Shown piece by piece: positions 45,395-47,442 of a stretch of DNA of 64,000 nt (positions within the stretch are counted from its first letter, which is position 1; each line of letters starts with the position of its first letter). Position numbers and translations under genes: made by a program. The notes beneath the pieces are model-generated. The model saw nothing but the letters and a program-made list of their open reading frames with translations, was not told where the DNA came from and searched no databases. Origin of the DNA: Pseudanabaena sp. UWO311 (GTDB lineage: Bacteria > Cyanobacteriota > Cyanobacteriia > Pseudanabaenales > Pseudanabaenaceae); assembly GCF_006937785.1 (NCBI RefSeq), contig NZ_SJEE01000013.1, forward strand, positions 1 to 64,000, given 5' to 3'.

Positions 45395-45787
45395 TTACTT
45401 GATGGAAACCTTACCACCAGCTTCTTCGATTTGCTTCTTAGCAGCTTCAGCATCAGCTTTAGGCATAGCTTCTTTGATGGTCTTAGGAGCAGACTCAACC
45501 ATATCCTTAGCGTCTTTCAAGCCCAAGCCTGTGATTTCGCGAACGATCTTAAGAACAGCAATCTTCTTGTCAGCAGGAACTTCATCAAGTACCAAGTCAA
45601 AAGCAGTCTTTTCTTCTTCTACTTCAGCAGCAGCAGCGCCAGCGCCAGGAGCAGCCATCATCATGCCACCAACTGGAGCAGCAGCCGAAACGCCGAAGGT
45701 TTCTTCAATAGCTTTGACCAATTCAGAAGCTTCAAGAAGGCTCAAAGACTTTAGTTCTTCAATGATGCTATCGATTTTTGCAGACAT
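45395..45787 (-). CDS. rplL: Ribosomal protein L7/L12
   Basis: A 130-aa stalk protein of the large subunit that recruits translation GTPases as dimers on L10. N-terminal dimer helices ([20 protein letters not shown]), an Ala/Gly-rich hinge ([16 protein letters not shown]), and the C-terminal domain ([40 protein letters not shown]). Length is normal for cyanobacteria. It is the last gene of the secE-nusG-rplKAJL cluster, 97 bp after rplJ. Confidence 0.97.
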
Positions 45788-45884: not shown

Positions 45885-46412
45885 CTACGCAGCTTCTTTC
45901 TCAGAAACAGCCTTGACAGCTCTGCCCAGAGATTGAGGAACCTCTTTGATACCGATCGCGATTTTGGCGGTAACAGAATTGATTGCACCAGCAATTTGCG
46001 CAAACAGTACTTCCTTGGAAGGTAGATCAGCGATTGCCTGCAAGTCTTTTGCAGTCAATGCCCGACCTTCTAAGACACCGCCACGAAGTTCGGTTTTCTT
46101 AGATTCCTTTTGGAATGCTTGATATGCCTTAACAGCACCACCAATGTCATCTTTAACAAATAGGCAAGCCGAAGGTCCAACTAGGAAACCTTCAAGAGGC
46201 TTCCATTCAGGAGTTCCAGAAATTGCTTGCTTGAGCAAAGTGTTTTTGGTAGTTCTGCACACCGTTCCCGTGGGACGGAGTGAGCGACGGAGTTTAGTAA
46301 TCTCAGCAACTGACAAAGTTGAGTAATCGATTACCATGACCATCTGAGTTCCTTCAAACTCTTTGGACATTTCTCCGACTAAAAATTTCTTTTGGTCTAG
46401 GGTCTTACCCAT
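45885..46412 (-). CDS. rplJ: Ribosomal protein L10
   Basis: A 175-aa protein that anchors L7/L12 dimers to 23S rRNA. Start MGKTLDQKKFLVGEMSKEF, the rRNA-binding segment (LRRSLRPTGTVCRTTKNTLL) and the C-terminal helix region (AINSVTAKIAIGIKEVPQSL) are all present. A strong GGAGGTGAG lies 7 bases before the ATG at 46412. Upstream is a 316-bp leader with a regulatory structure (see separate entries), which fits autoregulation by L10-L12. Confidence 0.97.
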   Translation of the reverse strand: MGKTLDQKKFLVGEMSKEFEGTQMVMVIDYSTLSVAEITKLRRSLRPTGTVCRTTKNTLLKQAISGTPEWKPLEGFLVGPSACLFVKDDIGGAVKAYQAFQKESKKTELRGGVLEGRALTAKDLQAIADLPSKEVLFAQIAGAINSVTAKIAIGIKEVPQSLGRAVKAVSEKEAA

Positions 46413-46439
46413 ATGGTTCTCACCTCCTTGTGTTTGGGG

Positions 46440-46472
46440 CTAATTAAATGGCGCGATGCGCCATTTAATTAG
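46440..46472. repeat. Perfect 15-bp hairpin, triloop GAT, before rplJ
   Basis: Arms 46440-46454 and 46458-46472, apex GGCGC-GAT-GCGCC, about 12 bases before the rplJ ribosome-binding site. It could hold the SD in a fixed context. Confidence 0.88.
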
Positions 46473-46494
46473 CTATGTAATCTTTAAAGTCATT

Positions 46495-46526
46495 AAAAAA
46501 GCCTCGTCTTTTCACAAGCCGAGGCT
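46495..46526 (-). terminator. Attenuator terminator in the rplJ leader
   Basis: On the minus strand: AGCCTCG, a 13-nt loop, CGAGGCT, then TTTTTT. The 5' side (46518-46525, GCCTCGGC) can instead pair with GCCGAGGT (46561-46568) transcribed earlier, so termination and the alternative pairing exclude each other. Confidence 0.8.
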
Positions 46527-46728
46527 AAAAAAGTATTCTTTCAAGAATCTTTTTTAAAACACCTCGGCAGGAAATTAAGCCATGAGCACCTGCTGTCTAT
46601 GGAGATATTCAGTTGTCGAAATTTCTTTCTAGGCTTATTACAACAATTAGACTTAGCTTTTACTTTTTCTTGTGGACTGTCCACTCAAGGCAAACAGTCT
46701 ACAGTTAAATGACTTTGAAAGGCTTTGA

Positions 46729-47442
46729 TTACGAATCTGCGAACTTGAGATCACGCAGAGCTGTAACATCAACTTCGATCGCGGGTCCCATAGTTGCAGA
46801 TACATATAGCGAGCGCCAGTATCTACCCTTTGCTCCCGAAGGACGATTGCGATCAATCGTTTCTTGCAAAGCTTTCAGGTTGATTAGCAAGTCTTCAGCA
46901 GTGAAGGCAGCCTTGCCAAATTGAATATGGACGATCCCTGTGCGATCGGCACGGAATTCTAGCTTACCAGCTTTGAATTCATTGATTGCAGCACCTAAAT
47001 CAGTAGTTACCGTACCACCTTTAGGTGAAGGCATCAACCCTCTTGGACCAAGCAACTTACCAAGCTTAGCCACTTGAGGCATCATGTCAGGCGTTGAAAT
47101 CAGCAAATCAAAATCCATTCTTCCCTTGCTGATTTCATCGATTAGTTCCTCAGAACCAGCGATGTCTGCGCCTGCAGCGGTTGCTTCGGCAACTTTTTCA
47201 CCGCGAGCAATAACTGCTACACGAATTGTTTGCCCCGTTCCTTTCGGTAAAGTTACCGTTGTCCGCAATTGTTGATCGGCGTACTTCGGATCGATACCTA
47301 GTCTGACGTGTGCTTCTACCGACTCAGGGAACTTAGCAGTTGCAGTGACCTTAACTAGTTCCAACGCATCGATTGGTGCGTAAGGGCGATCCTCAACTTT
47401 GCTGAGAGCTTCCTTAAGACGTTTTGAGATTTTCTTTGCCAT
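46729..47442 (-). CDS. rplA: Ribosomal protein L1
   Basis: A 237-aa protein of the large-subunit L1 stalk, which moves E-site tRNA. Typical: [59 protein letters not shown], and the [17 protein letters not shown] segment. In E. coli L1 represses its own operon by binding the rplK leader. It lies 99 bp after rplK. Confidence 0.97.

Follow-up and report, generated by a model that had tools for sequence, protein, structure and literature searches.

The window, meaning the whole stretch of 64,000 nucleotides of Pseudanabaena sp. UWO311 analyzed here, carries on its minus strand the gene series nusG, rplK (L11), rplA, rplJ, and rplL, all of which exceed the NCBIfam equivalog cut-offs. The spacer between rplA and rplJ spans 316 nt and holds the predicted attenuator, whose leader was the unique match to RF00557 in a genome-wide search. 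Rfam matches to GibS and tsr26 scored far under gathering and were rejected. In the direction of transcription, the genes and features are as follows.

46729-47442, minus strand: rplA (L1), the upstream gene (TIGR01169, 314.4 bits).
46486-46620, minus strand: L10 leader in full (Rfam RF00557, full-length match to model positions 1-138; 72.4 bits, gathering threshold 44).
46558-46609, minus strand: predicted L10(L12)4-binding hairpin, or anti-antiterminator (RF00557 alignment; fold of -10.3 kcal/mol).
46609-46602 with 46565-46558, minus strand: outer stem of the anti-antiterminator (RF00557 alignment).
46593-46589 (GCAGG) with 46571-46567 (CCUGC), minus strand: inner stem of the anti-antiterminator (RF00557 alignment).
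46578-46575, minus strand: unpaired UUAA of the anti-antiterminator, which also contains the kink-turn AGACA/CGA (RF00557 alignment).
46561-46568, minus strand: putative antiterminator 5' arm GCCGAGGU, common to the anti-antiterminator 3' strand (sequence; family pairing).
46527-46556, minus strand: A/U hairpin inside the antiterminator, predicted to bring its arms together (folding; spacers of 82 leaders against shuffles).
46518-46525, minus strand: putative antiterminator 3' arm GCCUCGGC, common to the terminator 5' arm (partner search, shuffle controls, family pairing).
46500-46526, minus strand: predicted intrinsic terminator AGCCUCG...CGAGGCU (fold of -13.5 kcal/mol; compensatory changes).
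46495-46500, minus strand: U-tract of the terminator, U6 (sequence; a U-rich tract stands in all Pseudanabaenaceae rows of the 28-leader alignment).
46474-46494, minus strand: possible minimal leader-peptide ORF, MTLKIT-stop, with the GAGG of the terminator 3' arm as Shine-Dalgarno (SD) sequence (inference only).
46439-46473, minus strand: second hairpin GCUAAUUAAAUGGCGC-AUC-GCGCCAUUUAAUUAGC, between the terminator and the rplJ SD (genus folding and covariation).
45885-46412, minus strand: rplJ (L10), the presumed regulated gene (NF000955, 155.9 bits), with the SD AAGGAGG at about 46428.
45395-45787, minus strand: rplL (L7/L12), presumed to be co-regulated (TIGR00855, 149.3 bits).

The sequence bears out the hairpin and U-tract that the original prediction had described as a terminator: AGCCUCG (46526-46520) pairs with CGAGGCU (46506-46500) around a loop of 13 nt, and U6 follows. 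A simple terminator/promoter scan gave nothing above chance and did not report this hairpin, because its loop limit of 8 is below the 13-nt loop. The proposed 8-base pairing of an earlier segment with the terminator 5' arm (46568-46561 with 46525-46518) is likewise found, GCCGAGGU and GCCUCGGC forming seven Watson-Crick pairs and one U.G pair, so that 46525-46520 is common to antiterminator and terminator. Between the two arms, the A/U hairpin (AAAAAAGAUUCUU/AAGAAUACUUUUUU) expected to stack inside the antiterminator was also recovered by folding. The interval first proposed took in the antiterminator and the terminator correctly, but it stopped short of the L10-binding hairpin that lies upstream, at 46609-46558. 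This hairpin has the kink-turn and UAA elements (AGACAGCAGG...CUUAA...CCUGCCGAGG, 46598-46562), and its 3' strand, CCUGCCGAGGU, includes the antiterminator 5' arm, which overlaps the inner stem at 46568-46567 and the kink-turn and outer stem at 46566-46561. Since an RF00557 kink-turn/UAA hairpin overlaps that arm, the idea of an L10-L12 sensor becomes concrete.

Folding predictions were consistent with a structured leader. The antiterminator reached -22.4 kcal/mol (ViennaRNA), and the RNA up to the terminator 3' arm folded with z = -3.4, none of 200 dinucleotide shuffles being as good; for the whole leader, z was -2.3 against shuffles. When the alternatives were forced on the full leader, the energies were nearly equal (-33.7 for the antiterminator and -34.3 for anti-antiterminator plus terminator), and minimum free energy folding by itself does not decide between the two predicted states.

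With a probability of roughly 0.88, we regard this leader as an attenuator by which the rplJ-rplL operon controls its own transcription, through three RNA structures that exclude one another. When L10(L12)4 is scarce, the nascent leader would form the antiterminator, GCCGAGGU pairing with GCCUCGGC and enclosing the A/U hairpin; this would take up the terminator 5' arm and let RNA polymerase read through into rplJL. Once L10(L12)4 exceeds 23S rRNA, the complex would bind and stabilize the kink-turn hairpin, and because the 3' strand of that hairpin contains the antiterminator 5' arm, the antiterminator would be blocked, the terminator would form, and transcription would end at 46500-46495. The sequences, the RF00557 membership, the logic of the overlaps, their conservation, and the covariation of the terminator are direct observations; that L10(L12)4 binds, that the response has this direction, and that transcription terminates in vivo is proposed by analogy with Bacillus subtilis and the RNA family. 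The suggestion that L10-L12 gives feedback by attenuation is supported in this way; it equals the B. subtilis mechanism (PMC4538822) and hence is not new, the effect of the protein and the early 3' ends being expected from homology.

RF00557 was detected in 173 of 291 genomes of the phylum and in 37 of 38 Pseudanabaenaceae genomes, and one family with small genomes (f20, probably marine picocyanobacteria) included many genomes without a match. For comparison, 96 cyanobacterial leaders were extracted by the core motif of the binding hairpin, so that conservation of the motif is partly by construction: the inner stem was paired at 5/5 positions in all 96 leaders, the core motif being the selection criterion, and UAA, which was no such criterion, was present in 92. 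In each leader, the strongest partner of the anti-antiterminator 3' strand, with one mismatch allowed, and the best terminator-like hairpin were located separately, and a shared segment of at least 4 nt was counted as coincidence. The partner fell on the terminator 5' arm in 82 of the 96 leaders, distributed over 21 families, against a mean of 15.3 when the strand was shuffled (100 trials; sd 3.6, maximum 24), 26 when it was reversed, and none for its reverse complement. Because the leaders share descent, they represent fewer independent events than the shuffle null assumes; even so, 21 families are many. An antiterminator search restricted to contiguous helices overlooked the pairing in many of the other cyanobacterial families, where an A.C mismatch interrupts it. 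Moreover, the spacers enclosed by the antiterminator outfolded their shuffles, with a mean z of -2.5 and 64 of the 82 leaders under -1.5, which agrees with the A/U hairpin seen in UWO311.

Within the covariation alignment of 28 Pseudanabaenaceae leaders, compensatory changes affected five of the seven terminator pairs, a level reached by none of 500 shuffles, and the antiterminator was paired in 99% of cells. Conservation of both pairings in relatives, on which the original prediction had staked its refutation, is thus found for the terminator, for the antiterminator, and for their overlap. The antiterminator 5' arm is nearly invariant, and every change in the 3' arm preserves the pair (G-C to G.U, U.G to U-A); there are no two-sided compensatory changes of the antiterminator in this alignment, because its 5' arm hardly varies, presumably owing to a double duty as L10 target. 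Across the phylum, the pair flanking GAGG changes type (U-A in 44, U-G in 32, and C-G in 2). The outer stem of the anti-antiterminator was only approximately 70-85% paired in Pseudanabaenaceae. These two points weigh against attenuation, as do the undecided minimum free energy fold and an A.C mismatch in the antiterminator of 40 of the 82 leaders.

These data bear on three other explanations. The complex L10(L12)4 might bind the leader and repress translation of rplJ, as in Escherichia coli, leaving the terminator-like hairpin without a regulatory role. In E. coli, repression of rplJL acts on translation, and for other species a 2008 binding study cited in PMC4538822 suggested likewise (PMC4538822, PMC10931766); furthermore, the genus has a second conserved hairpin immediately 5' of the rplJ SD. 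However, a U-tract terminator whose 5' arm is the antiterminator partner is kept across 21 families, the anti-antiterminator ends approximately 130 nt upstream of the SD, and the SD lies outside all three structures, which makes translational repression improbable. Less probable again is a constitutive partial terminator that sets the rplKA:rplJL ratio, with rplJL transcribed mainly from a promoter after rplA and the antiterminator incidental. The hairpin is plausible as a terminator, and an extended -10-like TGUUGUAAU (46645-46637) occurs 5' of the leader within a conserved block; yet the overlap of antiterminator and terminator is far above chance and goes together with a protein-binding hairpin whose function is known, and a promoter at that place would be upstream of the terminator, so that its transcripts would also be attenuated.

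The third explanation, accidental complementarity in a spacer that is A/U-rich and has a single GC-rich hairpin, would agree with the single leader, where the antiterminator pairing is only modestly unusual (p 0.02 for the UWO311 leader and higher for many others). It is refuted, for practical purposes completely, by the 82 of 96 leaders against 15 ± 4 and by the covariation of the terminator. Autogenous attenuation is the reading we retain, and it can be set against the known systems.

Yakhnin, Yakhnin and Babitzke (2015, PMC4538822) proved the rplJL attenuator of B. subtilis experimentally, combining footprinting and competitor oligonucleotides with reporter mutants and with transcription in vitro in the presence or absence of L10(L12)4. 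Like the leader described here, the B. subtilis attenuator comprises a kink-turn/UAA anti-antiterminator, an antiterminator, and an intrinsic terminator, each overlapping the next (PMC4538822); in both, 8 nt are common to anti-antiterminator and antiterminator, and an SD-like GAGG in the terminator 3' arm is followed by AUG. The geometry differs. Antiterminator and terminator overlap by 6-8 nt in cyanobacteria (median of 7 pairs) and by 5 nt in B. subtilis/Bacillaceae; moreover, the antiterminator 5' arm of cyanobacteria takes in two bases of the inner stem of the binding hairpin, whereas in Bacillaceae its first bases are GAGG, within the outer stem. Indeed, the inner-stem G and C positions were antiterminator-paired in 78 and 80 of the 82 cyanobacterial leaders. 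Bacillaceae leaders extracted by the same core motif displayed GAGGU pairing with (A)GCCUC, a 5-nt terminator overlap that fits the 5 shared nt published, and a long further stem. An 11-nt antiterminator test gave no excess in Bacillaceae (2/24), because in that group the antiterminator is longer and has GAGG as its start; it was recovered by folding in 17 of 20 leaders.

As regards RF00557 (L10_leader), the match is full-length and above gathering, with kink-turn hairpin and terminator included. The family consensus carries no mark of the antiterminator pairing, so a family match by itself does not show a switch. A likely earlier bioinformatic proposal is reportedly that of Yao in 2007. The E. 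coli rplJL leader involves the same protein complex and a similar kink-turn target (PMC10931766), but it acts on translation, and no terminator or antiterminator is described for it (PMC4538822, PMC10931766). In marine Prochlorococcus/Synechococcus, a table entry of Axmann 2005 lists a structured RNA predicted 5' of rplJ, likened in that entry to the E. coli beta operon and given there without an attenuation model (PMC1242208). Our literature search turned up neither RNA 3' ends nor binding or reporter experiments for any cyanobacterial rplJ leader, and rplJ goes unmentioned in Naville and Gautheret 2010 and in the Synechocystis papers on Term-seq and actuatons.

Two types of leader could be separated by the base that faces the kink-turn A in the antiterminator. 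This A faces C, as an A.C mismatch, in 40 of the 82 leaders (including L005-L030 and L061-L064), and the mean duplex energies of that group were -12.2 for the antiterminator and -15.7 for the terminator. For the A-U group, to which the UWO311 leader belongs, the corresponding means were -14.7 and -12.9. This difference suggests two default settings. At somewhat below even odds, we tentatively envisage a cyanobacterial variant of the L10 attenuator in which the antiterminator invades the inner binding helix and the kink-turn; in the A-U type the antiterminator would outweigh the terminator and the default would be on (Pseudanabaena), and in the A.C type the terminator would outweigh the antiterminator and the default would be more off (family f7 and others). 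Pseudanabaena would add, before the rplJ SD, a leader-peptide start that is independent of Rho, together with the second, covarying hairpin.

B. subtilis has a second tier, in which a leader peptide counteracts Rho and the terminator 3' arm serves as the SD of that peptide (PMC4538822). In all Pseudanabaena leaders examined, AUG lies approximately 8 nt 3' of GAGG; the ORFs range from 2 to 45 codons and the peptide is unconserved. Rho (PF07497) was found in none of 20 genomes, including UWO311, with nine control genomes positive; a Rho-blocking role of the leader peptide therefore cannot apply, and the peptide, if made, must act otherwise, or the AUG may be incidental. The second hairpin is a near-perfect stem of 16 bp, whose sequence diverges widely among species while the pairing is kept. 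Its mean z in the genus was -5.9, 10 of the 16 pairs were changed on both sides, and none of 500 shuffles had as high a covariation score.

The attenuation mechanism and the RNA family are known already, and a wide occurrence of L10 leaders in cyanobacteria is on record (PMC10931766); what is new is the cyanobacterial case, with a modest structural twist. The mechanisms of RF00557 leaders may diverge and deserve exploring (PMC10931766). In this context, a mechanism proven in Bacillus would be extended to a phylum in which RF00557 leaders are known and their mode of action had been left open (PMC10931766), with base-level predictions now available for tractable cyanobacteria. An intrinsic attenuator placed between rplA and rplJ would allow a phylum that lacks Rho to set L10/L12 apart from L11/L1, in keeping with the several copies of L12 that each ribosome needs.

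Other elements were observed around the leader, all read on the minus strand. Upstream of it, a block conserved in Pseudanabaena (AAGUCUAAUUGUUGUAAUAAGCCUAGAAA, 46653-46630) contains the -10-like TGUUGUAAU, and could be a candidate rplJ promoter similar to that of B. subtilis. A conserved block 3' of rplA (AAAGCCUUUCAAAGUCAUU, 46725-46705) is complementary to a conserved block 3' of the terminator U-tract (AAUGACUUUAAAG, 46498-46484); neither is a genome-wide repeat. A functional long-range helix between them was considered and set aside; the downstream block survives where the upstream block is lost. At 46700-46660, 3' of the rplA stop, there is a divergent inverted repeat, whose arms, from inspection of the alignment by eye, are variable yet paired in relatives. 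Finally, the rplJ-rplL spacer contains ATTACGAATT-like units in tandem (45880-45820).
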